Shown here: positions 17,032 to 33,602 of the stretch, in pieces
Layout of the letters: the number at the start of each line of letters is the position of its first letter
Numbering within the stretch: the first letter of the stretch is position 1
Assembly (NCBI GenBank): GCA_013298695.1
Contig: JAAFIS010000010.1
Span: forward strand, 1 to 64,000
Origin: Betaproteobacteria bacterium
GTDB lineage: Bacteria; Pseudomonadota; Gammaproteobacteria; Burkholderiales; Casimicrobiaceae
Direction of reading: 5' to 3'
Length of the DNA stretch: 64,000 bases
Made by a program: the position numbers and the translations under genes
The notes under the pieces: model-generated
What the model was told of the DNA's origin: nothing
The model's input: the letters and a program-made list of their open reading frames with translations, nothing else
Databases searched by the model: none

Positions 17032-17637
17032 GTGATTTGCGGCATCGACGAAGCAGGGCGCGGCCCACTCGCCGGGCCGGTATATGCCGCGGCGGTAATT
17101 TTGGGCGAACGAGGGCTATCAATCAAAGGCATCGACGATTCGAAGAAATTGAGCCAGGGCAAACGCGAGGCACTCGCGCTAGAAATTAAAGAGAAAGCGT
17201 TCGCGTGGTCGGTTATCGCAATCGACGCCAACATCATCGACCAAATCAACATCCTGCAAGCCACCTTGCAAGGCATGCACAGCGCCTTCATGACACTCGC
17301 TGCGCAAAAAGCAAAGCGAACCGCTATCCGCGAAATTGTTATCGACGGCACACAACTTCCGAAAGCGCTTGTCGCGTGGTGTGGTGCCCATGCAATCCGT
17401 TTAGAAGCGCTTCCGAAAGCCGACGCTACGGTGAAAGAGGTCGGTGCCGCGTCGATCCTCGCCAAAACCGCACGCGATGAATTCATGATTGCGATGGACG
17501 CGCGCTACCCCGGCTACGGCTTCGCACAACACAAAGGCTATGGCACCGCGCAACATCTGCAAGCCATCGCGACGTTAGGCCCGTGTGAGCTACATCGAAA
17601 AACGTTTGCGCCCATTGCGCAGTATTCGTTGTTATAG
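17032..17637 (+). CDS. rnhB: Ribonuclease HII
   Basis: Removes RNA from RNA/DNA hybrids and starts ribonucleotide excision repair. The 201-residue protein has the catalytic DEAGRGPLAGP at the N-terminus and the later Asp residues in IDGTQLP and ARYPGYGFAQHKGYG. The start is GTG at 17032, abutting the lpxB stop. The gene is full length, but its last 117 bp occur a second time at 34080-34196. The genes that usually follow rnhB in Burkholderiales (an SpoU-type RNA methyltransferase, then the PEP synthase region) are absent; an unrelated catabolic block follows instead. Confidence 0.96.
   Translation: MICGIDEAGRGPLAGPVYAAAVILGERGLSIKGIDDSKKLSQGKREALALEIKEKAFAWSVIAIDANIIDQINILQATLQGMHSAFMTLAAQKAKRTAIREIVIDGTQLPKALVAWCGAHAIRLEALPKADATVKEVGAASILAKTARDEFMIAMDARYPGYGFAQHKGYGTAQHLQAIATLGPCELHRKTFAPIAQYSLL
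17521..17637 (+). repeat. rnhB 3'-end direct repeat, left copy
   Basis: This last 117 bp of intact rnhB recurs in the same orientation at 34080-34196 with 109 identical bases. The longest exact stretch is 51 bp (17576-17626 and 34135-34185). The right copy stops matching right after the stop codon. The two copies bracket 16.4 kb. Confidence 0.95.
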
Positions 17638-17991
17638 ATAGTTCAAATTTTCAATGGGATCGGATATTGGCGCGACCGCGCCATCCGCTTGGGGTTTCAA
17701 TCAAAAAGTGCGAATCAAGCTATTTCGGCTTTGTTTGCTCGTGTGACTGCACACCAGGGTAGGCGGACCGATGCTGAATTTTGCGAACACCGGTCTTGAA
17801 TTACAAGTCTTTGACTAAATCCACTGTTCAGCTCCAGAAGTAGCCATTAATTCTTATTACTCAAGAATTCGTATTTTGGGTTGATTACCCAGTCAAAAAT
17901 GAGCTTCTAGGTTAAACACTGATAAATAGTTAAGCAGGTCGACGAATCCGCCACACTGAGCCGCTTCTGGTTCAACATAACTCGTTCTTCG
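17638..17991. other. Non-coding gap after rnhB at the left edge of the inserted block
   Basis: About 350 bp, visibly AT-richer than its surroundings, without a credible gene. It has a tight palindrome GGCGCG-AC-CGCGCC at 17669-17682, too close-set for a normal terminator. No integrase, tRNA or insertion-sequence end is seen. The receptor promoter lies at its right end. Confidence 0.6.
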
Positions 17992-18020
17992 TTGCTCAGC
18001 GCTATTTTCGCGGCTACATT
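17992..18020 (+). promoter_or_regulatory. candidate promoter of the TonB-dependent receptor gene
   Basis: TTGCTC (17992-17997), a 17-bp spacer and TACATT (18015-18020) give an ordinary but weak sigma-70 promoter. The transcription start would fall within the operator-like palindrome at 18024-18035, a layout that suits repression by a LacI-type protein. Confidence 0.45.
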
Positions 18021-18023
18021 TGT

Positions 18024-18035
18024 GCATACGAATGC
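18024..18035. promoter_or_regulatory. LacI-family operator-like site before the receptor gene
   Basis: GCATACGAATGC, an imperfect 12-bp palindrome with a central CG, 62 bp before the receptor start. It matches 11 of 12 bases of the perfect palindrome GCATACGTATGC at 21984-21995. Central-CG palindromes are the usual form of LacI/GalR-family sites, and a LacI-type regulator is encoded nearby at 24154-25215. Confidence 0.6.
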
Positions 18036-18096
18036 AATTTTCCGCGTGTTCATCACCCCGACCGAATCAAAAGCAAAACTGCAGAGGAGATACCGT

Positions 18097-20772
18097 ATGA
18101 GATGTACCTGTTCAACCGCTCCGATCCCCCTTAAGCGTAGGCCGTTAGCACTCCACCTAGCCTTGATGCTCAGCGCGTCCGCCTCGGTCGGCAGCTGGGG
18201 ACAGACACCGTCAGCGGCATCGCCAAATGCTGATGGCGAGATTAGCAAGCTTGAACGCGTCGAGGTCACTGTTCAGCGCAGACTCGAAGACAACCAAGAT
18301 GTTGCGGCATCTGTAAGTGCGATAAGCGCACGAAAACTCGCCGAACGAAACATTACCGACGTGTCGCAAATGGAGGGAATGTCGGCAGGTTTCACGTTTG
18401 GCCGATCAGGTACCGATGCACGACCTGCAATTCGTGGCGTACGTACTGAAAACGTTGGCGTCAACGGAGACACCACGATTGGATACTTTATTGACGGAAT
18501 CTACAAATCGCGCGCGCAGCAAGCGCTGGCAAGCTTTGTCGATGTAAATCGCGTCGAGATTCAGCGCGGCCCACAAGGGACACTGTACGGCAGAAACACT
18601 TTCGGCGGCAACGTCGCCGTGACAACACGCTCGCCGCAGATTGGCCTTTTCGACGCTTTCGGCAACTTTACAGTTGGGAATAACGCAAAAACCCGCCTTG
18701 ACGCAGGCGTTAACCTGCCGATCAACGACATGCTCGCATTCCGCGTCGCCGGTGTCGCCGATCGCTCTGATGGCTGGGTCAAGAACGATTTCAATTCGGC
18801 CGCAGATTTGTTCGACCAGAACTTGACCTACGGAAGGTTCAGTGTCCGTTTTGCGCCTAACGACAAGTTTGATGCGGTGCTTAAGGTAGACAACACCAAT
18901 CAAAAGGGCAACGGCGGCTCGGCGTTTGGATACAAACTGGTCGGTTCTTACTTGGATCGTGGCAGCTGCCAGCAGTTGTTTAACACGACGTTCACCGTGC
19001 TCAATACCCGTGGCGGCAACCGAGATGGCGTGAACGATTGCACGCGCACTGTCGGTGCGGGCAACGGAACTGGAACCAACGCGATTGGCACTAGCGTTGA
19101 TCTGGGAATTCCGATTTACGCCGCCGGCAACACAACACGTGTGGACAATGACTACCAGTCTTTTTTGAGGTTGAAGGATACAAGCAGCTCGCTGAACTTG
19201 ACCTACAGCGCAGATCGCTTCACATTCAAGTCAATCACCGGAACCGCTGAATTCGACGCCTCACGCTCACAGGACACTGATTTTTCTGCATCTACGATTG
19301 GTATCGATTACCAGAAAACACGTGCGAAAACGTTTTCGCAAGAGTTTCAAATCCTGTCCAATTCGACTGGGCCGCTGAGCTACCTTGCTGGGTATTACTA
19401 CTTCAAGGACGAACTCCAAGGTCTTTTCATTAATCAGCAGCTTCCACGCACCATTCGCTCGTCAGCGGCTGCACCGTTAGTGCTTGCACAAAACGGTGCT
19501 GGGTTCTTTGACAATCAAGAAGCAGAAACCGTTTCGAACGCCGTCTACGCACAGCTTAGCTATGAGTTCAACAAAGCGTTGGCCGTTTCATTTGGCGCGC
19601 GCTGGACGGAGGATAAGAAATCATTCCGGTTCGCGAACGCCAACTCTGTGCTGCCGCGCACCTCTGCAAATACGCCGGACGGCAACCAAATCACGTTGAA
19701 CACACCGCTTCCACCACAAAGTGCTTATGGCGCTTCAGGAACCTCCAATTGCAATCCTGCACGCGGACCTGGCTTTTATTGCGATCCTGCCAACCTAGCT
19801 ACGCTTTTCGGAGCCACTTACAACGACCAAAAGTTCACGAAATCGACTTTTAGAGGTGCGCTGGACTACAAACTCGATAAGAACAAAATGATTTATGCGA
19901 CCGTATCAAACGGCTTTCGGTCGGGAGGCTTTAACTCCGGGCAAGCGATTGAATCTGCGCGTACGTTCTTGCCAGAAGAGGTCACTGCAGTTGAGTTTGG
20001 TAGCAAGAATCGCTTCTTCAATGACACTTTGCAAGTGAATGCGGCGATTTTCAACAACGATTACAAGAATCTACAAGAGCAACGCCAAGTTCCGATTGGT
20101 ACGACAACGGTGTCGGTGATCTTCAACGCGGCGAAAGCGCGGGCGCGTGGCTTCGAGCTTGAGTTTGATTGGTTGCCGACTCGACGGTTAAGCGTAGGCG
20201 GTACGCTCTCGATTTTGGACGCGAAGTACACCAGCTTCCCCGATGCGCCCCTTCCGTTTGGAACGTCGATACTGGTTGCTGATGCATCGGCACCTGCAAC
20301 GGTCGTGAACGGCGTCGTGATCGCACCTGCGGGGCAGCGTCGCGTGTTCGCCCCGGGCTTTAACTGTGGATTGTTGAGCGGCACTGGCGGCGCAGGACAA
20401 CCAGCAGCGGGGTTTGGTTGTGATCTATCGGGTAGCCGAGTGCCTTATTCGCCGCGCTACCAAGGATCGTTAGCGGTAGGCTACGATCTTTTTGTGAGCG
20501 GGATGAAACTCACGCCGCTTGTCGCAGTCACTTTCTCGGATAGTTTTTACGGCCAACCCGCCAACGTAGACGCCGTCAAGCAAGCAGCATTTGCGAAAGT
20601 GGATCTGAAGCTCGGCGTTCAGGTAAATAAACAGTTCGGACTGCAGTTCTACGTAGACAACGTGAGTGACAAGCAAACCGCGACTCGATTTGTATGGGGT
20701 GGCGGCGGTGGGTTACAAGCAAGCTACGCACCACCGCGGCTCTACGGCATGAAGGTCTCTTACAAAATGTAA
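18097..20772 (+). CDS. TonB-dependent outer-membrane receptor
   Basis: Gated beta-barrel importer driven by TonB. The 891 residues have a signal peptide (hydrophobic LALHLALMLSASASVGSWG), a TonB-box-like region (LERVEVTVQRR), a plug domain with RGVRTENVG and VEIQRGPQGTLYGRNTFGG, and a 22-strand-type barrel closing with an aromatic-rich end (RLYGMKVSYKM). It resembles the large receptors used for carbohydrates and complex organics rather than classic siderophore receptors, though this is only a similarity of style. The ATG at 18097 is chosen for its strong GAGGAG 8 bp upstream. An operator-like palindrome in its promoter matches the one before the dehydrogenase operon, suggesting joint control. 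Confidence 0.9.
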   Translation: MRCTCSTAPIPLKRRPLALHLALMLSASASVGSWGQTPSAASPNADGEISKLERVEVTVQRRLEDNQDVAASVSAISARKLAERNITDVSQMEGMSAGFTFGRSGTDARPAIRGVRTENVGVNGDTTIGYFIDGIYKSRAQQALASFVDVNRVEIQRGPQGTLYGRNTFGGNVAVTTRSPQIGLFDAFGNFTVGNNAKTRLDAGVNLPINDMLAFRVAGVADRSDGWVKNDFNSAADLFDQNLTYGRFSVRFAPNDKFDAVLKVDNTNQKGNGGSAFGYKLVGSYLDRGSCQQLFNTTFTVLNTRGGNRDGVNDCTRTVGAGNGTGTNAIGTSVDLGIPIYAAGNTTRVDNDYQSFLRLKDTSSSLNLTYSADRFTFKSITGTAEFDASRSQDTDFSASTIGIDYQKTRAKTFSQEFQILSNSTGPLSYLAGYYYFKDELQGLFINQQLPRTIRSSAAAPLVLAQNGAGFFDNQEAETVSNAVYAQLSYEFNKALAVSFGARWTEDKKSFRFANANSVLPRTSANTPDGNQITLNTPLPPQSAYGASGTSNCNPARGPGFYCDPANLATLFGATYNDQKFTKSTFRGALDYKLDKNKMIYATVSNGFRSGGFNSGQAIESARTFLPEEVTAVEFGSKNRFFNDTLQVNAAIFNNDYKNLQEQRQVPIGTTTVSVIFNAAKARARGFELEFDWLPTRRLSVGGTLSILDAKYTSFPDAPLPFGTSILVADASAPATVVNGVVIAPAGQRRVFAPGFNCGLLSGTGGAGQPAAGFGCDLSGSRVPYSPRYQGSLAVGYDLFVSGMKLTPLVAVTFSDSFYGQPANVDAVKQAAFAKVDLKLGVQVNKQFGLQFYVDNVSDKQTATRFVWGGGGGLQASYAPPRLYGMKVSYKM

Positions 20773-20796
20773 GCGGGTCGATCCTCCGGGTGATTC

Positions 20797-20832
20797 AAAA
20801 AACGCAGTTGCTTTATCGCGCTGCGTTTTTTT
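20797..20832. terminator. Bidirectional hairpin terminator
   Basis: AAAAAACGCAG (20797-20807) pairs with CTGCGTTTTTT (20821-20831) across a 13-nt loop, giving a stem with T runs on both strands. It lies between the convergent receptor gene and the NTF2-like gene and can end both transcripts. Confidence 0.82.
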
Positions 20833-20881
20833 GTGACGCACGTCGCCGGAAACGTGCTGTTTGCTAGCCACTGCCACACAC

Positions 20882-21886
20882 CTATCTGCGGGCGCGAGAA
20901 AGTAGGTCGACCCCCATTTGAAGCATAAGGTGTGGCAAGTCGATCAGCACCCAGTTCTCTTCGATCGTATGCTCGCTGACCCGCCACCAATCCATAACCC
21001 GCATCCCTATCGGCGCATTAGTCGCCGAGACCCCCAAATATTCACCGCTATGAGTTGCAGTCACGCTCGGCCAGCCGGTAGAGGCGAGGTAGTGTCCTTC
21101 CGCGATACGTGCTCGATGGCTTCCGCCCTTCCGATCGGGGAACGCATGCAAAAATGGGCGCTGATGGTGCGTTTGAAAACCAGCGACGGTGCGTGCCGTG
21201 CCAATGCCGCACGGTCCGTACCACATCATCGTGGGGCTCCAATGTTCGTGCATGCCCATCGTGTCGAGGTTCACGCCGTCAAATCGCATCAGTGCCGCGA
21301 TCATCGCTTGCACACGCGTAACGGATGAGAGTGTTCGCGCTAGCGGTTGCGGACTCAGCAAGCAACCGCCGTGATCGGCCGGACCAGGTACCCAAAGTTC
21401 TAGCCCAGAGCTCGGCGGCAGAATCGGCCGCTTGATCTGTCTGCACAAATCGACGACGTCGATCAATATCCGAGCTTCAGCAATCTGGCCACCGACCACG
21501 CGATAGAACTCGCCGTAGCGGAGGTACAGAGTCTGGCTCGTCGGCTCGAGGCCAAACAGCGGCGCAACAAATTCACCCACATAGTATCCGTGGACAGCCA
21601 CCCAAATACCTTCGCCGCCGCAGAATCTGCCGTCGAAGGCTCCACCCATAAAGATATCGATCCGACGGCCTAAACCACGGAGTGCCTTGTTCAAAGGGGT
21701 GACCCATTGAGTGGCTATTGACTCGCGCCCCTGTAGTTGATTCACCGGATGGCTGACATGCCAGACAGCATCGTGTGCAACGTGTGCTTCGAGGTTAGGC
21801 GCTGTCAGATAGGCATAAACGAGCTCTTTGCTCGCGTGCAAAATTGATTCATCGGGGATCAGGATCGGGCCGTCGGTTTTTTGCAT
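20882..21886 (-). CDS. Double NTF2-like (SnoaL-type) protein 1
   Basis: 334 residues with two NTF2-like alpha+beta cone domains in tandem: the first about 15-165 (AVWHVSHPVNQLQG, then FGLEPTSQTLYLRYGEFYRV), the second about 185-330 (MHEHWSPTMMWYGPCGIG, then ENWVLIDLPHLMLQMG). SnoaL-like proteins of this build act as small-molecule cyclases, isomerases, dehydratases or hydrolases; the reaction here is unknown. The ATG at 21884-21886 is preferred to upstream ones at 21943 and 21952, which add basic, non-conserved residues, but no clear Shine-Dalgarno decides it. It is divergent from the dehydrogenase operon, across a shared operator, and a second protein of like architecture is encoded at 25212-26204. 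Confidence 0.8.
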   Translation of the reverse strand: MQKTDGPILIPDESILHASKELVYAYLTAPNLEAHVAHDAVWHVSHPVNQLQGRESIATQWVTPLNKALRGLGRRIDIFMGGAFDGRFCGGEGIWVAVHGYYVGEFVAPLFGLEPTSQTLYLRYGEFYRVVGGQIAEARILIDVVDLCRQIKRPILPPSSGLELWVPGPADHGGCLLSPQPLARTLSSVTRVQAMIAALMRFDGVNLDTMGMHEHWSPTMMWYGPCGIGTARTVAGFQTHHQRPFLHAFPDRKGGSHRARIAEGHYLASTGWPSVTATHSGEYLGVSATNAPIGMRVMDWWRVSEHTIEENWVLIDLPHLMLQMGVDLLSRARR

Positions 21887-21983
21887 AGTTGAACTGTAGT
21901 GCGTTGTGTAGCGCAGAGTGCGTCTGAGGTGGATGTGTGCCATGGACACCAATGAAACAACACAACATACACTCGACCAAATT

Positions 21984-21995
21984 GCATACGTATGC
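21984..21995. promoter_or_regulatory. LacI-family operator-like site in the divergent promoter
   Basis: GCATACGTATGC is a perfect 12-bp palindrome with central ACGT, placed in the 144-bp gap between the leftward NTF2-like gene and the rightward dehydrogenase operon. A one-base variant lies before the receptor gene. It is a good candidate site for the LacI-type regulator encoded three genes downstream. Confidence 0.65.
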
Positions 21996-22030
21996 TACAG
22001 TCAATCCAGTTTTCCATTGGAGCGCGATTT

Positions 22031-23350
22031 ATGGTTCGTTATCTCAAATCTGGTCAAACTGCGCAGGCCCACGCTGCCGCAGACAGCAAAGTGCGAGCCA
22101 CGGTCGAGGCCATCATCGCAGACATTGAGAAGCGAGGCGACGCGGCCGTGCGCGACTATTCGGCAAAATTCGATCAATGGTCGCCAGAGCATTTCATTCT
22201 TTCCCAGAACGAGATTGAAGCCGCCGTGAAAAAGCTCTCGCCGCGAGAAATTGAAGACATCAAATTTGCGCAGCACCAGATTCGAAACTTTGCTCAGATC
22301 CAGCGCAATAGCATGCAGGATGTTGAAATAGAAACGCTTCCTGGCGTTGTGCTCGGCCACAAACATATTCCGGTGAACGCGGTTGGCTGTTACGTTCCCG
22401 GTGGAAAGTATCCCTTGATCGCGTCGGCTCATATGAGTGTTCTTACCGCGAAGGTCGCCGGTGTGCCGCACGTTGTGTCGACCGCGCCGCCCTATCAGGG
22501 CGCACCGCATCCGGCGATTGTTGCCGCGATGCATTTTGCCTGCGCAGATCAGATTCTCGTTCTCGGCGGCGTGCAGGCCGTGGCCGCTATGGCAATCGGC
22601 ACCGAATCGATAAGCGCGGTTGATATGCTCGTCGGACCAGGAAACATGTTTGTCGCTGAAGCAAAGCGTCAGTTGTTTGGTAGAGTCGGCATTGACCTTT
22701 TTGCGGGGCCGACCGAGACGTTGATCATCGCCGACGACACTGTGGACGCCGAAATGTGCGCGGTCGATCTACTCGGGCAGGCAGAGCACGGACCTACCAG
22801 TCCGGCTATTTTGTTGACGACTTCCGAGTCGCTCGCGCGGGCAACTATGGCAGAGGTCGAGCGCCAGCTTAAAGTTTTGCCCACAGCTGCAATAGCATCG
22901 ATTGCGTGGGCAGAGCACGGCGAGGTGATCGTGTGCGACAGCGACGATGAGATGGTTTCTAAGGCTGATGAAATCGCAAGCGAGCACGTTCAAGTGATGA
23001 CGCGAGACCCCGATTATTTCTTGGATCGAATGACTAACTTCGGTGCGCTCTTTTTGGGGCCGCGCACTAACGTGAGCTTTGGTGATAAGGTAATCGGCAC
23101 CAATCACACGCTGCCCACAAATAAAAACGCGCGCTACACCGGGGGGTTATGGGTTGGGAAGTTCTTGAAGACCTGTACCTATCAGCGTGTTACTAACGAC
23201 CAAGCGTCCGCAGACATTGGTGCGGTGTGCTCGCGTTTGTGCCACATGGAGAATTTCGCGGGTCACGGCGAGCAAGCGAACCTACGCGTTCGCCGCTATG
23301 GTGGACGCGACGTCCCGTGGTATCAACCTGTAGTCGCTCAATCGGTGTAG
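22031..23350 (+). CDS. Histidinol-dehydrogenase-family protein, resembling HpsN (sulfopropanediol dehydrogenase)
   Basis: 439 residues of the zinc- and NAD-dependent HisD superfamily. The metal and catalytic set is intact: Gln and His in QAEHGP, Glu-His in ASEHVQV, Asp in FGDKVIG and the late His in FAGHGEQA. The substrate-side motifs [16 protein letters not shown] and [17 protein letters not shown] differ from biosynthetic HisD (typically PNHVLPT) and recall the HpsN branch, which oxidises 2,3-dihydroxypropanesulfonate; this subfamily match is from memory. There are no histidine genes nearby and no sulfolactate lyase genes, so the true substrate is open; I infer oxidation of a primary or secondary alcohol. 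Start ATG 22031 lies 36 bp after the operator palindrome. The SDR gene follows after 6 bp. Confidence 0.8.
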
Positions 23351-23356
23351 GTTGGG

Positions 23357-24157
23357 ATGCAATCCGTGGCACGCAATACCGGGGACCCACGCGCTGCGTT
23401 ACCCGTTATGCCAAGCTTCAGGCTAGACGGAAAACGCGCTCTCGTGACAGGCGCTGGACGTGGCATTGGTCTCGCCGCGTCAGTTGCCCTTGCCGCGCAG
23501 GGTGCGGCGATCACACTGGTGGCTCGATCAGAAGCCGAAATTGTGGAGGCAGCGGAAGGGATTTGCTCGCGGGGTCAAGTTGCTGTCGCTTCCGTGCTTG
23601 ACGTGACGGACAGCGCACAGTGCGCAACTTTTTTTGCGAGAGAAGCACCGTTTGATATTGTTGTTAACAGTGCCGGTATGAATCGCCCGGCGCCACTCGC
23701 CGAAACGGACGACGAGACGATTGCAGCGATTTACTCGCTCAATGTGCTCGCTGTCTACCGCATTATCCGCTCGGCGACCGAGGGCATGATCGCATCATCT
23801 CGCGGCGGCAGCATCATTAGTATCAGTTCGCAAATGGGGCACGTGGGCGCCGCGTCGCGCAGCGTTTATTGCGGCACTAAACACGCACTTGAAGGCATGA
23901 CCAAGGCGCTAGCTTGGGAGCTCGGCACGCATCGAATCCGAATCAATACCATTTGCCCAACGTTTATCGATACACGAATGACCTCTGCGATGCTTGCCGA
24001 TACAGCATTCCACAAGTCGGTCGTGGAACGCATCGCTTTAGGGCGCGTGGGTCAGGTGGAGGACGTGATGGGTGCTATCTGTTTTCTTGCGGCTGACGCG
24101 AGCGCTATGGTGACTGGATCAGCGCTTATGGTTGATGGTGGGTGGAGCGCGCAATGA
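23357..24157 (+). CDS. SDR-family NAD(P)-dependent oxidoreductase
   Basis: Classical short-chain dehydrogenase of 266 residues: nucleotide loop TGAGRGIG, NSAG near residue 105, catalytic Ser in ISISSQMG, and the YCGTK pair of Tyr and Lys. It ends in VTGSALMVDGGW, standard for the family. The upstream ATG (23357) is used because it is only 6 bp from the dehydrogenase stop; the ATG at 23408, giving MPSFRLDGKRALVTG, is an equally plausible start. It ends in an ATGA overlap with the LacI gene. It probably catalyses a second oxidation or reduction in the same pathway. Confidence 0.88.
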   Translation: MQSVARNTGDPRAALPVMPSFRLDGKRALVTGAGRGIGLAASVALAAQGAAITLVARSEAEIVEAAEGICSRGQVAVASVLDVTDSAQCATFFAREAPFDIVVNSAGMNRPAPLAETDDETIAAIYSLNVLAVYRIIRSATEGMIASSRGGSIISISSQMGHVGAASRSVYCGTKHALEGMTKALAWELGTHRIRINTICPTFIDTRMTSAMLADTAFHKSVVERIALGRVGQVEDVMGAICFLAADASAMVTGSALMVDGGWSAQ

Positions 24158-25215
24158 GTCAGCCCCGCGATGGTCGAGCCGTCACGTCTATTGATGTCGC
24201 AAAAGCGGCTGGCGTATCGCAGTCCGCGGTCAGCCGCACGTTCACCCCAGGGACTGCTGTTTCCGAGGCAACGCGACTCAAGGTTCTTGATGCAGCAAAA
24301 AAACTTGGCTATCGCCCGAACGCGATCGCGAGAACCCTTTCGACCAGCCGCTCACGGATCATAGGCGTCGTGCTCTCTACACTTGACAACCAGTTTTACC
24401 CCGCTGCGATTGAGCACCTCTCTCGTTCACTTCAAGAGCACGGCTTGCACGTGATGTTGTTCTTTGCGGAAGGCCGCGACGTAGATGGCGCGTTGTCACA
24501 ACTCTTAACGTATCAGCTTGACGGCGTGGTTATTGCCTCCGCTACGCTTTCGTCACGGCTCGCCCGGGAATGCACTGCAATGGGCATCCCAGTGGTAATG
24601 TTCAACCGGAGCGCAGCGAGCACGCAAACAAGCTCAGTCACGAGTAACAACATTGAAGGTGGACGGCTTGCGGCGAACCATTTGCTCGATTGCGGTTGCG
24701 ATCGGATCGCCTACCTTGCCGGCCGCAGCGACTCTTCGACCAACCGTGATAGAGAAGCGGGCGTTAATCTTGCGCTTCTTGAGCGCGGCCATACGCTGGT
24801 GTTTCGCGAAGACGGGTCTTACGAACCTGCAATGGCCAAAGAAGCGACGCGCAGGCTCATGAGCGCGCCACAACCGCCAGACGGCCTAATCGTTGCAAGC
24901 GATTACATGGCTTTTGCGGCGCTAGATACTTTACGCAATGAGCTCGGTTTCGAGGTTCCTTCCCAAGTTTGTGTCGTATCGTTCGACGATGTGCCCGCCG
25001 CAGCGTGGGGTGCCTACGCGCTCACCACGGTCGCTCAGTCGATCCCAGCGATGGTGCACTCCACGGTGAGTATTCTTTTAGAACAATTTAGCGATCAAGC
25101 CATGGTAGCCCGCGATGTCATTGTTTCGTCGCGACTGATCGTTCGAAGCACCACGAGCGCTGCTCGCGTTGAAGGTCAAGTTAAGGGGCAAAAATCTGCG
25201 AGACACGCCGAATGA
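24154..25215 (+). CDS. LacI/GalR-family transcriptional regulator
   Basis: 353 residues: an N-terminal helix-turn-helix (SIDVAKAAGVSQSAVSRTF), hinge helix (PNAIARTLSTSRS) and a periplasmic-binding-protein-like effector domain (about 65-335) with IIGVVLSTLDNQFYP and GLIVASDYMAF. It overlaps SDR by 4 bp and the next gene by 4 bp, so it is made as part of the operon it probably represses. The GTG at 24142 is a possible alternative start, but the ATG at 24154 has TGGAG suitably placed. Likely targets are the central-CG palindromes at 18024-18035 and 21984-21995. The inducer is unknown, presumably a sugar or pathway intermediate. Confidence 0.92.
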   Translation: MSQPRDGRAVTSIDVAKAAGVSQSAVSRTFTPGTAVSEATRLKVLDAAKKLGYRPNAIARTLSTSRSRIIGVVLSTLDNQFYPAAIEHLSRSLQEHGLHVMLFFAEGRDVDGALSQLLTYQLDGVVIASATLSSRLARECTAMGIPVVMFNRSAASTQTSSVTSNNIEGGRLAANHLLDCGCDRIAYLAGRSDSSTNRDREAGVNLALLERGHTLVFREDGSYEPAMAKEATRRLMSAPQPPDGLIVASDYMAFAALDTLRNELGFEVPSQVCVVSFDDVPAAAWGAYALTTVAQSIPAMVHSTVSILLEQFSDQAMVARDVIVSSRLIVRSTTSAARVEGQVKGQKSARHAE

Positions 25216-26204
25216 ATGCAGCAACAAATTTAGAAAATTCTCCGCGAGGAATGCGCGGATTCGATGCCGAATTTGTTGATTTGCCAGACTACATCACCCG
25301 CATCACACACCGGATATGGGAAGAGCGGCAAATTGAACTCATACAGCAATACTACAGTGACCCGTGCGTCGTCGAAACGCCTGCATCAGTGACGACTACG
25401 CCGCAAAGCGTCATTGACGGCACTCACTCAACCTTGAAAGCATTCCCAGATCGCGAGCTGTTGGCCGAAGACATTATCTGGTCGGGCGACGCTGAGCGCG
25501 GCTATCTCTCGTCGCATCGTATCGTGTCGCCAATGACTCATTTGGGTGAAGGCGTTTTTGGTGCACCGACTGGCCGCAAAGTGCGTGTGCGTACGATCGC
25601 CGACTGTTGGTGCATCGAGAACCGGATATCACATGAATGGCTGGTGCGCGACCAAGCGGCGATTGCCCAGGCCATTGGCCTCGGGCCCGAGTCATTGGCA
25701 GCGGCGTGGCTAGAAACACGCGGTGGTCGCTGGCACCACCCCGTGGCGCCGAGCGCTCCGCCGCCATATGAAAATCACGTCGACACTGGCGTTGTCGGAA
25801 CGTTCGCAGTAGCTACCTATAGGTCGCTAGCCACCGGCGACATCTCCAGCGCATTCAATCGTTGTTATGACCGGGCAATTACGGCGGTTACCCCGGGTGA
25901 GCGCTACCGATATGGCGTCGCTGAGCTTGGCGAGTTTTGGCGCGAGTATCGTGAAGCGTTCGCTGATATTGCACTTCAGATCGAGCATTGCATTGTGCGC
26001 CAGGATCGAAACGCGCCGGTGCGAGTTGCAATGCGTTGGCGACTATCCGGTGTCCATCGCGGCGGCGGAAAATTCGGCGAACCGACCGGACGCGCAATCG
26101 AGACAATGGGAATCACACATTTGGAAATGCGAAACGGACGGATCTCACGTGAATGGTTGTTGCTAGATGAGGTCGCGCTTTGGATGCAAGTCTTAAGCGC
26201 GTGA
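25212..26204 (+). CDS. Double NTF2-like (SnoaL-type) protein 2
   Basis: 330 residues with two NTF2-like domains, roughly 15-160 and 180-325. Each ends in a similar strand (ISHEWLVRDQAAIAQ, then ISREWLLLDEVALWM), which marks the internal repeat. Sequence style is that of the SnoaL/ester-cyclase group, acting on small carbonyl or polyketide-like compounds, but no reaction can be assigned. It overlaps the LacI gene by 4 bp and lies 32 bp ahead of the ABC importer. Together with the protein at 20882-21886 this gives four NTF2-like domains in one locus. Confidence 0.78.
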   Translation: MNAATNLENSPRGMRGFDAEFVDLPDYITRITHRIWEERQIELIQQYYSDPCVVETPASVTTTPQSVIDGTHSTLKAFPDRELLAEDIIWSGDAERGYLSSHRIVSPMTHLGEGVFGAPTGRKVRVRTIADCWCIENRISHEWLVRDQAAIAQAIGLGPESLAAAWLETRGGRWHHPVAPSAPPPYENHVDTGVVGTFAVATYRSLATGDISSAFNRCYDRAITAVTPGERYRYGVAELGEFWREYREAFADIALQIEHCIVRQDRNAPVRVAMRWRLSGVHRGGGKFGEPTGRAIETMGITHLEMRNGRISREWLLLDEVALWMQVLSA

Positions 26205-26236: not shown

Positions 26237-27328
26237 GTGGCACGAGTTCAGCTCAATGAAGTTTCTCGCGTGTGGAATAGTGCAGGCATACGCACCGTCG
26301 GGCTGAAGCCGTTGTCACTCGATATCGCGGATGGTGAATTCATTGTGTTGCTTGGTCCGTCAGGCTGCGGCAAAACTACCACCATGCGCATTGTCGCTGG
26401 CTTAGAGGAATCTAGCGCTGGCGAAGTATGGATTGGTGATCGCTGCGTGAATTCGCTCGAACCCAAGGATCGTGATGTAGCGATGGTGTTTCAGAGCTAT
26501 GGTCTGTATCCCAACATGACAGTGCGTGAAAACATCGCGTTTCCCCTAAAGATTCGCGGCACACCACGCGCTGACATTGAGCCCGCAGTGGCGCGAGCGG
26601 CCGCTATGGTGGAGCTCAACGATTTGCTGGATCGCAAACCGAAAGCACTGTCAGGCGGTCAACGCCAGCGCGTTGCACTTGCGCGCGCAATCGTTCGAAA
26701 ACCAGCGGTGTTTTTGATGGATGAGCCGCTGTCAAATCTAGACGCGAAGCTGCGTGTGAGCATGCGATCGCATATCAAGCACCTCCACCACACACTGAAA
26801 ACGACCACTATCTACGTGACGCACGACCAGATCGAAGCGATGACCTTAGCCGACCGTGTGGTCGTGATGAGCAAAGCCGAAATTCAGCAAATTGGCACTC
26901 CGCAGCAAATCTACAACGACCCTGCGAACACCTTCGTAGCGAGCTTTGTGGGGTCACCAGCGATGAACTTGATTGAGGGTGAATTGCTGGCGGGAGTTTT
27001 CCGTTGCAACGGAATCGAGATCGCCGGATTCGATGCTGTTCGCGACGGGCGTGTGCTGTTGGGCGTGCGGCCCGAGGACGTTGCCGTGCAGGCCGCAGCG
27101 ACGCGCGATGTCGATTCACAGCGATACGTGCTGGTCAACGCCGACGTATTCACCTGCGAGCTGACGGGTGACGCTACGTTAGTGGTTTGTGACGTCCGAG
27201 GGCAACGCATCACTGCAAAGGCAGATAAAAACGTACGCTATGAAATCGGAGACAAAGTGGGTTTAGGCTTTTCAGCCATACACAGTTTTTTATTTGATGC
27301 GGTGACGCAAGATCGAATTCGCAAATGA
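26237..27328 (+). CDS. ABC transporter ATP-binding protein, MalK/UgpC type
   Basis: Cytoplasmic ATPase of a CUT1-type carbohydrate importer. The 363 residues show Walker [11 protein letters not shown]-loop [11 protein letters not shown], signature [14 protein letters not shown], Walker [13 protein letters not shown] and the switch His in [18 protein letters not shown]-type regulatory domain follows from about residue 240. The start is GTG at 26237 with GGAG about 10 bp upstream. The binding protein and both permeases are encoded directly downstream, so the importer is complete. Confidence 0.94.
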
Positions 27329-27374
27329 AGATGTCGAAGAGATCGCGCATTGCGCCGCTTGGTCTGAAGGGCGA

Positions 27375-28625
27375 ATGATGAACGCAACGTTTTTACGTGC
27401 AGGTTTAGTTGTGTGGTTAATCGCCGCGCCACTAGTCGCGCAAGCCAAATGTGGTTTGATTTCGGGAAAAGGCGAGATCAACGTTATCAGTAATGCGTTT
27501 TCTGCGCTTAATGACTTGGCAAAAGAAATGGAAAGCTGCAGTCGTCCCGGATTGAAAGTCACGGTGAAAATCACACCGGAAGCGCGCGTCGAGACCGAGC
27601 GAGCGTTCGCTACGGCAAGCGCGTCTCCGTTCGCTGCCGCTGTCGTATCGATGGGCACATTTTCGGGCTTGTATAGCCGCGGTCAGCTGCAAAACATGAC
27701 CGATTTAGCGAAAAAATATCGGTCACGCTACAACATTGAGGAATCAATGCTCGTGCGCGTCGATGGTGAAGTGATGGCAATTGCGTTCATGAAAAACACC
27801 CAAAATCTGTTCTACCGAAAGGACATTTTTGATAAGCACAATCTTAAGGTGCCTGTAACCTACGCAGAAATGCTTGCCACCGCTGCCACGATTAAATCCA
27901 AAGAATCAAGCATCGATTTCCCGATTGCACAGACGTTCGCTAAGGGATTCGATAGTGCGACCGAATTCGTAAATCTGCTTGCTTCGCACGGTGGTCGGAT
28001 GTTTAAAGCGGGTAGTGCGCGGCCCGAATTCAATAGCGACGCTGGAATTCAGGCAATTGAAACCATGCGTGCACTGTTGCCCTTCATGACGCCTAATGCA
28101 CTGGCTTCGAACTCCGATGATGTGATGAATCAGTTCCAGCAAGGCAAAGCGGCGATGGGTGTGCTCTGGGCCTCACGCGCGGAACGCATGGATGATCCGA
28201 GAGCGTCGAAGGTTGTCGGGAAAATGGAGTTCGCAGCGGCACCCAAAGCCAACGCAAGCGGGCGGGTTGCGGCACACCTGTGGTGGGATGGGGTGGTGAT
28301 GCCCAAAAATAGCGGGCAAGATCGTGACGTCGTGTTTCAAGTGTTGATGGAAGCGCTTGACGAGGAAACAACCCGAGCTGCCAACGACCGTGCAATCTGG
28401 GTCCGCTCTATCTACCAGCCAACCCGATTTGGCGCGGGCGTTACAGCCACAGCTCAAGCGGGCGCGCCGATATGGCCGACCGAGCCGTTTTTTGGATTAG
28501 CGCACGGCGAAATTGGAAAGGTACTGCCTGAGGCACTTGCAGGAAAGCTCACACCGAAAACCGCGCTTGACACTGCCGCCGCAGCCTATGAAAAATCCGC
28601 CGCCGACCACGGTTTCATTCGCTGA
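27375..28625 (+). CDS. Extracellular solute-binding protein (CUT1 ABC importer)
   Basis: 416-residue periplasmic binding protein with a Sec signal peptide (hydrophobic LVVWLIAAPLVAQA, cleavage near AQA-KC) and no lipobox. The mature part has the family-1 pattern: INVISNAFSALNDLAKEME, then VDGEVMAIAFMKNTQNLFYRK and QFQQGKAAMGVLWAS. Two Cys early in the mature chain (KCGL and ESCSR) could form a disulfide. The ATG at 27375 is used; a second ATG follows directly. It presumably hands the ligand, after its passage through the receptor, to the two permeases encoded next. Confidence 0.9.
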   Translation: MMNATFLRAGLVVWLIAAPLVAQAKCGLISGKGEINVISNAFSALNDLAKEMESCSRPGLKVTVKITPEARVETERAFATASASPFAAAVVSMGTFSGLYSRGQLQNMTDLAKKYRSRYNIEESMLVRVDGEVMAIAFMKNTQNLFYRKDIFDKHNLKVPVTYAEMLATAATIKSKESSIDFPIAQTFAKGFDSATEFVNLLASHGGRMFKAGSARPEFNSDAGIQAIETMRALLPFMTPNALASNSDDVMNQFQQGKAAMGVLWASRAERMDDPRASKVVGKMEFAAAPKANASGRVAAHLWWDGVVMPKNSGQDRDVVFQVLMEALDEETTRAANDRAIWVRSIYQPTRFGAGVTATAQAGAPIWPTEPFFGLAHGEIGKVLPEALAGKLTPKTALDTAAAAYEKSAADHGFIR

Positions 28626-28642
28626 GTCAACCCACCTGCACC

Positions 28643-29629
28643 TTGAAAACAGCCACTTTCATTCGTTTTTCTAGCGCATCGGTGCTACTCATGCTGCTGC
28701 TGATGGCGGTACCACTGGCAATGACTTTCTACTTTTCGCTGCAACAGTGCGCGCTCGACTTGGAGCTGGTTACAGTAACGCAAACCGGACCGTTTGGGAG
28801 TCAAGCGGTGGTGACCCAGCGCGCGCGACAAGATGCAAATGGGAAACCGATTGAACGATGCGAATTCATCGGGTTCAGACATTACGAGCGAATTCTTGGG
28901 CTCGATAATGACACTACCACCAGCGCAGCAAAAAACGAGGCACCCAACGAATTCTTTGCAGCGCTTAAATTTACGTTAACCTACATCATCAGCACCGCCC
29001 CGTTGGTACTCGCGATTGGTCTGCTTCTCGCGTTGGGAGTGCAGCGATTGTCGACGCGCTGGCGCGCGGTATTTATCACCTCAGCCCTTTTGCCGTTCAT
29101 CGTCACGCCCGTGGTCGCGGCGTTATCGATCAAATGGTTGTTTCGAGATAATGGATTGATCCCGTTTCTCCTTTCAAAAATCGGCGTGCAAGTCTTCTGG
29201 ATGGCTGAAGCATGGTCGGCCCAGCTTTTGATCGTTCTATATGGTGTATGGCATTCAGTGCCGTTCGCGTTCATTGTGCTCTTCGCAGGATTGCAGTCAG
29301 TACCACAGGATTCGCTCGAAGCGGCAACCATTGATGGCGCTAGCAAGTGGCAAAGGTTCATCTACGTCACATTGCCACACCTAGCGCCGCTCGTTGTGTT
29401 CGTGCTGCTCATTCACGTGATGGATGCGTATCGCGTCTTTGAGCCAATCGTCGTTCTCACACAAGGCGCGTTTACGACGAGCGTGCAATATCTGACGTAT
29501 TTTGTGCTGTTGCAAGAAAACAATCCGTTTAAGGCGAGTGCGGCTTCGGTACTAACGATGGCCGGTATTGCCGTACTGCTAGTGCCGCTTCTCATCAAAA
29601 CCTACCGTGAACAACGCGGGATCGCATAG
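28643..29629 (+). CDS. ABC sugar permease, MalF/UgpA type
   Basis: Inner-membrane subunit of 328 residues with about six helices and the EAA loop (EAATIDGASKWQRF) that docks on the ATPase. The start is TTG at 28643 (MKTATFIRF). Between helices 1 and 2 there is an approximately 85-residue periplasmic insert with two Cys (QQCALD and ERCEF), longer than in minimal CUT1 permeases and reminiscent of a small MalF-type periplasmic loop that may touch the binding protein. Confidence 0.9.
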   Translation: MKTATFIRFSSASVLLMLLLMAVPLAMTFYFSLQQCALDLELVTVTQTGPFGSQAVVTQRARQDANGKPIERCEFIGFRHYERILGLDNDTTTSAAKNEAPNEFFAALKFTLTYIISTAPLVLAIGLLLALGVQRLSTRWRAVFITSALLPFIVTPVVAALSIKWLFRDNGLIPFLLSKIGVQVFWMAEAWSAQLLIVLYGVWHSVPFAFIVLFAGLQSVPQDSLEAATIDGASKWQRFIYVTLPHLAPLVVFVLLIHVMDAYRVFEPIVVLTQGAFTTSVQYLTYFVLLQENNPFKASAASVLTMAGIAVLLVPLLIKTYREQRGIA

Positions 29630-29654
29630 GTCACGAAAGGATCAAAGAGCCGCA

Positions 29655-30482
29655 ATGAATTTTTCGAAGCGAAATCAAGTTTGGATTGTGGTGGCGCTCG
29701 CGATCTGGCTGGTGATCGCTTCGTTACCTGTTGTGTGGACAGCGATCATTTCGTTACGGAGCTACGTTGATGCGTTCGCGAACCCAGTCAAGTGGACTGC
29801 ACCGGTAACGTTTGAGAATTACCGCGCCCTTTGGGTGGATCGCGAGTTTTACAAAAATTTCGTCAACACGGCGATTGTGACACTAGGCACGGTAAGTATT
29901 TCGCTCACTGTAGGTTGCTTAGCGGCGTACGCTCTGGCGCGATATCGCGGAGCCTTGGGGTTCTGGTTGTTGCTGCTTGCACTCGTTTTTCGCGCGCTCC
30001 CACATTCAACGTTATTGCCATCGTTTTTCACGATGTTCGATGCACTTGGCATCCGCAATACGTACATCGCGTTGATCTTTGTTTTGGTGGCCATCAACCA
30101 GCCGTTCACCATCTGGATGTTGCGCTCTTTTTTTATGAACATTCCAGCGGAGCTTGACGAGGCGGCGATGGTAGATGGCTGCACCCGGTTTCAAGCCTTT
30201 CGCCGAGTAGTTATTCCTGTCATGTGGCCAGGAATCGTAACGACTGGTTTGTTTAGTTTCTTGCTTGCGTACAACGATTTTTTGCTGAGCTCAGCGCTTA
30301 CCAATGCCGAGAAAATGACGATGCCAGCCGCAATCGCCAATTCGATTTCCGCAGAAAGCGAGGCACTTTTGATGCAAGGTGTTGCCGGCGCGGTGAGCAT
30401 TACGCTGCCGCTGATTATTTTGGTCGTGCTTTTTCAGCGCCAAATCGTTTCTGGGTTAACTCAAGGCGCCGTGAAGGGCTGA
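29655..30482 (+). CDS. ABC sugar permease, MalG/UgpE type
   Basis: Second permease subunit, 275 residues, six predicted helices, EAA loop DEAAMVDGCTRFQAFRRVV. The ATG at 29655 is chosen because it follows AAGAGCC and directly precedes the first basic and hydrophobic segment; an upstream in-frame ATG at 29607 lies inside the preceding gene. The bicupin gene begins 7 bp after the stop. Confidence 0.9.
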   Translation: MNFSKRNQVWIVVALAIWLVIASLPVVWTAIISLRSYVDAFANPVKWTAPVTFENYRALWVDREFYKNFVNTAIVTLGTVSISLTVGCLAAYALARYRGALGFWLLLLALVFRALPHSTLLPSFFTMFDALGIRNTYIALIFVLVAINQPFTIWMLRSFFMNIPAELDEAAMVDGCTRFQAFRRVVIPVMWPGIVTTGLFSFLLAYNDFLLSSALTNAEKMTMPAAIANSISAESEALLMQGVAGAVSITLPLIILVVLFQRQIVSGLTQGAVKG

Positions 30483-30489
30483 ACTAGAC

Positions 30490-31638
30490 ATGTTGATGCA
30501 AGATGTGGTGCTCGCACCCGAAGCGCTCGCGGTACGCCATTTACGTGCGTCGGATTACGTTCCAGATACCGAGGCATTTGTTGATTGCCGATTGCCAGGG
30601 TCGATGCCCAAGGAAAACTATTCGATGATCGGGCCTGGTGTGACCCAGAGCGCGAAGCAATTTATCAACTTGCAGGAGCCGCATGGATTTAACGTTGGTG
30701 CGGCTGGCGTTCACCCTGGCATCACCAATAACCTGCATTTGCATTTCACTAGTGAAACTTTTGTCGCAGCGAGTGGTGCCTACACTCTTCGCTGGGGCGT
30801 TCGCGGCGACGAGGGTTCTCTGCACTTAGACACTGGCGACATCGTTGTCATGCCGACATGGATGTTTCGCGGATTCTCGAGCGCGAGCGATGAGTACGGT
30901 TTTTTGATGACGGTGCTTGGCGGCGACGACACCGGCGGGATCATTTGGAGCCCTGATGTGCTGCAACGTGCGCGCGGTACCGGTCTCTGGCTCACCCGCG
31001 AGAATCTACTCGTCGATACGAGCTCCGGCGCTAGCCCTCCGCCGGAAGAGGAATGTATGCCGCTCCTGGGCGATTTGGATGTCAAGCAGTTGCGGCATTG
31101 GCAACCGGAGGAGATGGCCGAACGCGTGCTTCGCAAGCAGGATCGCGACTTTCGCTCTGCAACGTTAGACACATCGGCTGGTGCCCGTTGGCAACTCGCA
31201 CCAGCGGTTGGATATGGAGTGACTCAGCGACGAGATCATTGGCCACGCGTCGGCGAGCCGCAGGGTTTTTCGATCGAATGGGCGAAACTTGAACCGGGAG
31301 ACAGCAGCGCGGTGTTTCGGACGACCGAAAAAATGGTTTTGATTAGCGTGTTTGGACGACTACGGGTGCGACTCAATCGCGCACCCAATACCCTCGAGTG
31401 CGTGCTTGGCCCGCGCGACATCCTTTCCATCCCGTCCGGGGTGTGGCGCCAGTTCATAAACGAAGATAGTGAATTGGTCGCGGCGGAGACGTTAATCGTA
31501 TTGCCAGGCGATGCTAGGAAGAAAATCGATTGGGAGTCCGGAATTCGCGATGCGGCAGCCGTCAACGGCGTCACGCTGGATGCAGATGGACGCATGGCGC
31601 CGAGTCGGCTGCTGCCACCAGGCATGCGACTCGCGTAA
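30490..31638 (+). CDS. Bicupin (double cupin) protein
   Basis: 382 residues with two cupin barrels, about 60-160 and 245-345. The first keeps an HLHFTSETFV motif, with His-x-His and Glu placed as metal ligands, followed by GDIVVMPTWMFRGF. The second (PGDSSAVFRTTEKMVLISVFG, DILSIPSGVWRQF) lacks the His pair and is probably structural. The build recalls bicupin dioxygenases and sugar isomerases; which, if either, is not clear. It is translated directly after the permease genes, so it most likely acts on the imported compound. Confidence 0.8.
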   Translation: MLMQDVVLAPEALAVRHLRASDYVPDTEAFVDCRLPGSMPKENYSMIGPGVTQSAKQFINLQEPHGFNVGAAGVHPGITNNLHLHFTSETFVAASGAYTLRWGVRGDEGSLHLDTGDIVVMPTWMFRGFSSASDEYGFLMTVLGGDDTGGIIWSPDVLQRARGTGLWLTRENLLVDTSSGASPPPEEECMPLLGDLDVKQLRHWQPEEMAERVLRKQDRDFRSATLDTSAGARWQLAPAVGYGVTQRRDHWPRVGEPQGFSIEWAKLEPGDSSAVFRTTEKMVLISVFGRLRVRLNRAPNTLECVLGPRDILSIPSGVWRQFINEDSELVAAETLIVLPGDARKKIDWESGIRDAAAVNGVTLDADGRMAPSRLLPPGMRLA

Positions 31639-31720
31639 TTGTGAGAATGCAGCTCCCAGGGAAAACAGTGCCGCGCGCGTTAACCGTTCGATTAGCCGTT
31701 TGTTTGTGCGTGCGTGAATC

Positions 31721-32461
31721 GTGAGGACTGTAAAAATCATCTCACTGCCCGGAACGCTGCTCGACGGGAGTAGCCTACAACCAATGTTGGAGATGCTCAC
31801 TGAAATTCTTGCTCGCTATGGGATTGAGGTTCGTACGCGTACCGTAATTCTTGGCGACAGCGCAACGCTTGAAGGCGAGTGTCGACGACTCGAGGCGTTC
31901 GCTGACGAGCCGACATGGTGGCTTGGACACTCTCTTGGCGGTATCGTCTCACTCGCGCTCGCGCGTCTTGCGCCGCGAGTCGTGCGTGGCATAGTAACGC
32001 TTGCATCCACCGCGCGCGCTGACGCTTGTCAGAGTGCTGAGCGTCGTCGGTTAGAGCTCGCACAGGCAGAGGAAGACGGGCATCCGATGTCAATATCGCT
32101 CGCTCTTAAAAGTACCTTTGATGTTGAGCGGGGCACACCTCTAGGCCGCACATTGATGCGTCAAGCGGCGCATGTAGGGCTCGCGCGCTTTCGGATGCAA
32201 ACGCGTTACGCGCTCGAGCGAGCTGATCAACGCGTGCAAACTTTCTTGACGCTACCTCTGCTCGCAATTTCTGGGGCGCTCGACGCGGTTTGCCCGCCAG
32301 ACCGTAGTGATGAAGTCGCGCAGGTTTCTACACAAGGCGCGCACATCTGCATTGAGGGAGCTGGTCATTTATTACCGATAACGCACGCCGAAGTCGTCGC
32401 GCAACACATCGCTACTTTCATCAATCACCATCATGGACTCCATCATGCGCACATCGACTGA
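31721..32461 (+). CDS. Alpha/beta hydrolase
   Basis: 246 residues of the alpha/beta hydrolase fold with the full triad: nucleophile Ser in GHSLGG near residue 70, Asp in SGALDAVCPP and His in GAGHLLP. The N-terminus ISLPGTLLDGSSL is of the MenH/BioH-like kind. The start is GTG at 31721; 82 bp separate it from the bicupin. It would cleave an ester, thioester or C-C bond. Its end overlaps the MetE-type gene by about 17 bp, so the two are coupled. Confidence 0.85.
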   Translation: MRTVKIISLPGTLLDGSSLQPMLEMLTEILARYGIEVRTRTVILGDSATLEGECRRLEAFADEPTWWLGHSLGGIVSLALARLAPRVVRGIVTLASTARADACQSAERRRLELAQAEEDGHPMSISLALKSTFDVERGTPLGRTLMRQAAHVGLARFRMQTRYALERADQRVQTFLTLPLLAISGALDAVCPPDRSDEVAQVSTQGAHICIEGAGHLLPITHAEVVAQHIATFINHHHGLHHAHID

Positions 32462-33602
32462 TCGAATTCTCACGACCCATGTCGGCTCATTGCCGCGAAA
32501 CCAAGCCGTTGTTGACTTCATCTTTGCAAGAGAACGAGGTGAAACGATAGACGAATCTGGTTGCCGCGCGGCGCTATCAGAAGCAGTCCAAGACGTCGTA
32601 GAGCGGCAAGTGCGTGCAGGCATCGATATCGTTTCCGACGGCGAAATGAGCAAAATTAGCTACGCCACGTACATCAAGGATCGTTTCACTGGCTTCGATG
32701 GCGACAGCCCGCGGCGGACGCCCGGCGACCTGCTTGAATTTCCAAGTTTTATGAAAAAACTCTCGGGTGGCGGAGGAACCCCAAATTATCGACGCCCGTG
32801 TTGCATCGGACCGATAGCTGTGAAATCTATGCAACCACTGTCTGACGACATTAGTTTCGTCAAGACCGCAGCTAGCAAATCGGGCGCGACCGAAATTTTC
32901 ATGAATGCTGCGTCGCCTGGCGTGATCGCGCTGTTTCAGCCCAATCAACATTACGCTGACGATGACCAGTATCTGGAAGCCCTAGCGCATGCGATGGCGC
33001 ATGAGTACAAAGCCATCGTTGATGCCGGACTTATTTTGCAGCTTGATTCGCCAGACCTTGGTTTGGGCAGGCACATGATGTATCGTGATCTTGACGAATC
33101 AGCGTATTTGTCGCGCATTGAGCGTCACGTTGAGGCACTGAATTTAGCGTTGGCAACTATCCCAGCAGACCGCGTGCGCATGCACGTGTGCTGGGGCAAC
33201 TATGAAGGACCGCACCACAAGGACATCGGTTTGGAGACTATTTTCTCAATAGTGATGAAGGCCAAACCACAAGCGCTACTTTTTGAGAGCAGTAATCCCA
33301 GGCACGCGCACGAGTGGGAGGTCGTACGCGATATGAAGTCCGCGATTCCAGATGACAAAATTCTGATCCCGGGAGTACTTGATTCCACCACTAACTTTAT
33401 CGAACATCCTCGTCTCGTTGCTCAACGTTTGAGCAAGTTCATAGAGATTGTGGGTCGTGAGCGCGTGATTGCCGGCACTGACTGCGGTTTCGGTACGTTC
33501 GCGGGATTCGGGGTGGTGGACCCTGAAATCGTGTATGCAAAGTTCGCCGCAATGGCGGAGGGAGCAGAGATAGTTACAAAGCAGTATTTCAAAGACAGCT
33601 AG
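32445..33602 (+). CDS. MetE C-terminal-domain-like zinc methyl/alkyltransferase
   Basis: 385 residues related to the catalytic half of cobalamin-independent methionine synthase and to epoxyalkane:coenzyme M transferases. It starts with ILTTHVGSLPR and keeps the zinc ligands: His and Cys in MHVCWGNYEG, Glu in LLFESSN and Cys in AGTDCGFGTF. The N-terminal folate half of MetE is absent. Stand-alone members transfer or remove alkyl groups at sulfur; the place of this one in a sugar-type catabolic locus is unusual. The ATG at 32445 fits the usual N-terminus; an in-frame ATG at 32433 is the alternative. It is the last gene of the operon, and no clear terminator follows. Confidence 0.85.
   Translation: MRTSTDRILTTHVGSLPRNQAVVDFIFARERGETIDESGCRAALSEAVQDVVERQVRAGIDIVSDGEMSKISYATYIKDRFTGFDGDSPRRTPGDLLEFPSFMKKLSGGGGTPNYRRPCCIGPIAVKSMQPLSDDISFVKTAASKSGATEIFMNAASPGVIALFQPNQHYADDDQYLEALAHAMAHEYKAIVDAGLILQLDSPDLGLGRHMMYRDLDESAYLSRIERHVEALNLALATIPADRVRMHVCWGNYEGPHHKDIGLETIFSIVMKAKPQALLFESSNPRHAHEWEVVRDMKSAIPDDKILIPGVLDSTTNFIEHPRLVAQRLSKFIEIVGRERVIAGTDCGFGTFAGFGVVDPEIVYAKFAAMAEGAEIVTKQYFKDS

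Follow-up and report, generated by a model that had tools for sequence, protein, structure and literature searches.

We have identified a putative LacI-family regulon in a 64 kb stretch (hereafter the window) of contig JAAFIS010000010.1, from the 4.08 Mb genome of a Betaproteobacteria bacterium of the Casimicrobiaceae. A local LacI-family repressor very probably controls two targets through a shared palindromic operator: the operon that carries its own gene and encodes a HisD-like dehydrogenase, a short-chain dehydrogenase/reductase (SDR) and an ATP-binding cassette (ABC) uptake system, and the gene for a TonB-dependent outer-membrane receptor. A shared operator linking the receptor gene to the catabolic operon had been proposed from a first reading of the sequence (the original prediction), and conservation of the sites, their co-occurrence with the LacI protein and the match between recognition helix and operator all argue for it. 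LacI control of a TonB receptor is already known from SuxR and SucR, and such switches are textbook matter; what is new is apparently a widespread, undescribed regulog around the HisD-like enzyme. Together, the ready-made operator matrix and the conserved HisD-like/SDR/LacI core point to a catabolic pathway that occurs in many proteobacteria and has apparently not been described.

The coordinates and letters of both palindromes (Table 1) were exact in the original prediction. The likeness of the two sites exceeds the 12-mer, as 15 of 16 positions are the same between the operon site, AATTGCATACGTATGC, and the minus strand of the receptor-gene site, AATTGCATTCGTATGC. When the window was scanned with the 12-mer at up to two mismatches, three matches were found vs 2.74 expected; this raw mismatch scan is at chance level and was therefore not used as evidence, and resemblance alone is weak. 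Genome-wide scans were carried out by pattern matching rather than with a matrix. Across the genome, the 14-mer TTGCATWCGTATGC is matched perfectly only at the two window sites. Allowing one mismatch adds three matches, of which one is the operon site read from the opposite strand and two fall within reading frames. No third intergenic copy was noticed in the first reading, and accordingly there is none anywhere in the genome for this 14-mer at one mismatch or fewer. When the window was scored with a matrix built from 49 distinct sites, all from outside the genus, the receptor-gene site came first (24.6 bits), ahead of the operon site (21.1 bits) and of a third position at 9.7 bits; in 200 random 64 kb sequences, the best score with the same matrix had a mean of 9.4 and a maximum of 22.8. 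The consensus of the 49 outside sites, TTTGCATACGTATGCAAA, is an even palindrome with a central CG, and both window sites fit it. The central CG and the LacI gene inside the operon, both noted in the first reading, are borne out by the matrix consensus and by the domains of the encoded protein.

Conservation within the family was assessed in 64 genomes. Five of them encode a close orthologue of the LacI protein (61-100% identity, E < 1e-120), and distant homologues (33-35%) occur in three more. The 13-mer TGCATACGTATGC was found in those same five genomes, always at the cluster, and in none of the 59 genomes that have no close orthologue. The operon-promoter core is perfect in four further genus genomes, and TGCATACGTATGCTACA(G/T)T is unchanged at the operon promoter across five genus genomes, with diverged flanks on either side. 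Variant sites precede the orthologous receptor gene in G007 and G015, which are both of the relatives with an intact upstream region there. The G007 cluster also has a variant site before the NTF2-like gene. In G016, the divergent region next to the dehydrogenase gene contains two sites, and in G009 a site directly separates lacI from the NTF2-like gene. G016 also has an exact copy of the 14-mer on C312, within or close to a reading frame unrelated to the cluster.

Outside the family, alpha-, beta- and gammaproteobacteria as well as plasmids have comparable clusters that include a LacI orthologue of about 40-53% identity. Among 44 orthologue loci, a TGCATACGTATGCA site was found in 26 at up to one mismatch and in 33 at up to two. 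As a control, half-sites were permuted around an unchanged CG centre; the 100 resulting palindromes gave means of 0.05 and 1.7 and maxima of 1 and 12, respectively. Three truncated loci were extended, and each then proved to have a site. Conservation at orthologous loci had been set beforehand as the test by which the shared operator could be refuted; the sites proved to be kept within the genus and, together with the LacI orthologue, across three classes.

The sites also follow the known grammar of LacI operators. In local LacI regulons, the operator is an even palindrome with a central CG that lies 30-140 bp before the start codon, and autoregulation is usual (PMC4052901). The window sites share these norms of palindrome, centre, distance and local control of uptake and catabolism: the receptor ATG (18097) is 62 bp past its operator, the dehydrogenase ATG (22031) is 36 bp past the operon operator, and the ATG of the divergent NTF2-like gene is 98 bp from the latter. 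Of 52 proteins, 42 have the recognition helix VSQS[AT]VSR, in which the variable residue is Q, and the operator differs among proteins with Q, R and T helices, although the numbers are small, with one nested Q-to-R case and one T case. In the tree, the R-helix protein of L160 branches within the Q group, and the operator of its locus is TTGCACACGTGTGCAA. An operator of this type also accompanies the distant R proteins of L077 and L079, and TTGCAACCGGTTGCAA is found with other distant R proteins. No recognisable site was seen at L148 (helix T), nor at the Q-helix loci L068, L071 and L171, all three of which are cut by contig ends. According to the LacI code, Arg at AA-20 goes with G at NT-6 (PMC2978694), and the pairing of these two positions here agrees with it. 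The operator is assigned to the LacI protein because of co-occurrence (5/5 vs 0/59 family genomes), operator grammar and the matching changes in helix and operator.

Several observations weigh against this assignment. The distant Q-helix orthologues at L072 and L073 (36-37% identity) have no site, and the absence of a site at L153, which also has the Q helix, is unexplained. The Q-to-R helix change tracks NT-3, which is outside the main code positions of PMC2978694, and with so few cases the link between helix and operator is therefore a correlation. A strict sigma-70 scan of 17640-22100 gave no promoter match at either site. The receptor beside the cluster in G016 (31% identity, unrelated) has no site. 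Lastly, the TGCAAACGTTTGCA sites at a second LacI locus of the same genome, described below, score 26.1 bits with the matrix from outside the genus.

Some of these points bear on the receptor gene in particular. The operon site could be a real LacI operator and the receptor site non-functional, which would leave the receptor outside the regulon. Such a reading draws on the one mismatch in the receptor site, on the failure of the strict scan to recognise its promoter, and on the receptor itself, of which no orthologue was seen in the clusters of other families. We consider it unlikely, since the receptor site has the top window score with an independent matrix, an identical core, GCATACGAATGC, is the sole site of L070 and, in the opposite orientation, of L067, and sites precede the receptor gene in G007 and G015. 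The -10 box that the original prediction had placed before the receptor site is weakly supported: TACATT is readable there, but the strict scan did not recognise it. The candidate promoter (TTGCTC-17-TACATT) stops just before the operator, which would cover the transcription start. TGCTACA(G/T)T at the operon promoter does not vary among the five genus genomes and may be an extended -10 element; the strict scan did not report it either.

A second alternative is that a different regulator binds the palindrome and that LacI merely travels with the cluster and binds elsewhere. The assignment to LacI is drawn from sequence, and clusters of some genomes contain other regulators, such as a second LacI gene in L153. 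The LacI gene is, however, the only regulator gene recognised in the operon of the window, the presence of the site and of a close LacI orthologue agree over the 64 family genomes, and the operator differs where the recognition helix differs, all of which makes a different regulator quite improbable.

The genome encodes another LacI protein (C1:233600, helix VSVSTVSR), which might also, or instead, control the window sites. Its locus (G000:C1:228000-245000; L192) has a TonB receptor of its own, a ROK-type kinase, a likely sucrose phosphorylase and a major facilitator superfamily (MFS) transporter, the gene names there being read from the sequence and not from a family scan. Two TGCAAACGTTTGCA sites occur at this locus, one of them just before the receptor gene, and the presumed sites of the second protein, TTTGCAAACGTTTGCAAA and ATAATGCAAACGTTTGCATAAA, differ from the window operator at one position per half-site and have high matrix scores. 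Since the TGCAAACGTTTGCA sites score as high, discrimination between the two proteins may rest on that one position, and cross-talk is possible. We nevertheless regard control of the window sites by the second protein as very improbable, given that the cluster encodes its own LacI protein and that the motif tracks this protein in distant genomes. Two LacI regulons in one genome that are one position per half-site apart (TTGCAAACGTTTGCAA in the second) provide a natural test of how the helix residue relates to operator choice. A chance pair of short palindromes in promoter DNA, which the two-mismatch window scan at chance level would allow, is contradicted by genome uniqueness, co-occurrence with the protein and conservation across classes, and has a negligible likelihood.

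Under control by the local LacI protein, a LacI dimer would bind TTGCATACGTATGCAA-type sites and, without inducer, block the promoter of the HisD-like/SDR/lacI/ABC operon. Third in this operon is lacI, its ATG overlapping the SDR stop codon (ATGA), and the operator would therefore also control the repressor itself. The divergent NTF2-like gene would probably be blocked too, and the same protein would hold the promoter of the TonB-dependent receptor gene shut. LacI would be released by a small molecule (most likely the substrate itself, once imported, or an early intermediate), and outer-membrane uptake, inner-membrane uptake and oxidation would then be turned on together. The putative substrate class is a sugar, polyol or sugar acid; a sugar-type ABC importer and its binding protein are present, but the enzymes do not name the substrate. 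The effector of the repressor would point to the substrate of the pathway, and the operator is an immediate means of finding that effector.

Two characterized systems resemble the proposed regulon. At the SuxR/suxA locus of Xanthomonas campestris, the LacI-family repressor governs its own gene, a TonB-dependent receptor, and both inner-membrane uptake and catabolism of a single substrate (PMC1790865). The likeness lies in a TonB receptor and catabolic genes under one regulator, for which the evidence here is the sequence of the two best sites in the window; the SuxR system serves sucrose and relies on an MFS transporter and an amylosucrase, and the window instead encodes a HisD-like dehydrogenase, an SDR and an ABC importer. 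At the SucR/sucA locus of Caulobacter crescentus, the LacI-type repressor controls an operon that starts with a TonB receptor gene (PMC11897816). There, sucR is described as constitutively expressed, whereas the lacI gene of the window lies inside the operator-bearing operon. No HisD-like/SDR regulog with this motif appears in the searched text of PMC4052901, the supplementary tables and RegPrecise being outside this search, and literature searches for the operator string or a HisD-like/LacI cluster returned nothing relevant. We give about even weight, for and against, to the fuller proposal of an undescribed regulog over alpha-, beta- and gammaproteobacteria that combines a third HisD-family class (G-K-[YF]-P-[LM]) and an SDR with exchangeable transporters (ABC, tripartite ATP-independent periplasmic (TRAP), and binding proteins of the tripartite tricarboxylate transporter (TTT) type), and that, among the loci seen, has a TonB receptor under the same repressor in this genus only.

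The solved structures nearest to the HisD-like enzyme are the 2,3-dihydroxypropane-1-sulfonate (DHPS) 3-dehydrogenases HpsN, which likewise belong to the HisD family, have the signature G-R-Y-A/S-H and recognise the sulfonate through His126 (PMC11382572). DHPS catabolism was rejected as the role of the operon enzyme, because the sulfonate-binding His126 is replaced by Leu/Met. The motif is G-K-Y-P-L in the window and G-K-[YF]-P-[LM] in orthologues wherever it is readable. Histidine biosynthesis is disfavoured as well, as the motif is not the G-S-A-P-L of HisD and the genome has another HisD homologue (C1:60701), which is 37% identical to the operon enzyme. The latter thus seems to form a separate branch of the HisD family, with neither the HisD nor the HpsN signature. 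The loci L167, L170, L172 and L173 contain a second HisD-family gene, 48-49% identical, with the motif G-R-Y-P-I, a further variant next to the G-K-Y-P-L type.

The remaining genes of the cluster are listed in Table 1. The two ABC permeases (28643-29629 and 29607-30482) were assigned from their position and from orthologues annotated as sugar ABC permeases. Searches for solved relatives of the NTF2-like, cupin, MetE-like and binding proteins gave general matches or none, and no substrate was indicated by them.

Table 1. Operators, candidate promoter elements and genes of the proposed regulon (window coordinates).
Feature	Position	Strand	Sequence or basis
Candidate receptor promoter, TTGCTC-17 bp-TACATT	17992..18020	+	Putative; read from sequence
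Receptor-gene operator	18024..18035	-	GCATACGAATGC, minus strand AATTGCATTCGTATGC; one mismatch
TonB-dependent outer-membrane receptor (plug + beta-barrel), 891 amino acids	18097..20772	+	PF00593 E 7e-33, PF07715 E 8e-13
Divergent two-domain SnoaL/NTF2-like protein	20882..21886	-	PF07366 E 7.5e-21
Operon operator, promoter of dehydrogenase operon	21984..21995	.	GCATACGTATGC, perfect palindrome
Candidate extended -10 element abutting operon operator	21993..22001	+	TGCTACAGT; putative, from conservation
HisD-like dehydrogenase, catabolic paralogue, signature G-K-Y-P-L	22031..23350	+	PF00815 E 2.5e-137
SDR	23357..24157	+	PF13561 E 5e-52
LacI-family repressor, recognition helix VSQSAVSR	24154..25215	+	DNA-binding domain PF00356 + periplasmic-binding-protein-like sensor domain PF13377, both above cut-off; start read from sequence
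Second two-domain SnoaL/NTF2-like protein	25212..26204	+	PF07366 E 2e-26
Sugar-type ABC importer: MalK-like ATPase, solute-binding protein, two permeases	26237..30482	+	ATPase PF00005, TOBE_2, OB_MalK; binding protein PF01547
Cupin protein, alpha/beta hydrolase, MetE-like (cobalamin-independent methionine synthase type II) protein	30490..33602	+	Also present in orthologous clusters

One copy of a 139-bp direct repeat lies on each side of the cluster (17498-17636 and 34057-34195; 91% identical): the 3' end of rnhB recurs after the MetE-like gene. In G008 and G007, the part of the sequence that was read contains the rnhB end once, and in G007 rnhB and the cluster are on separate contigs. The repeat may be a scar of island acquisition.

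The arrangement of operators varies among the more distant loci. Burkholderiales relatives have a tandem pair of operators, always spaced 26 bp apart (L146, 9839/9865; L150, 9804/9830; L154, 9845/9871; L155, 8177/8203; L157, 4060/4086 and 12545/12571), which precedes the HisD-like gene in five of the six cases; the window has a single site there. In the Rhodobacterales loci L046-L048, two mirror-image hybrid sites, GCATACGTTTTC and GAAAACGTATGC, lie at about 6280 and 6405, between divergent genes for a binding protein and a MalK-like protein. The HisD-like/SDR core was also found on conjugative plasmids of Delftia (L150) and Advenella (L148). The Delftia plasmid is of the IncP type and carries the core near an IS1071 transposase gene, and the plasmid location suggests that the core is mobile.

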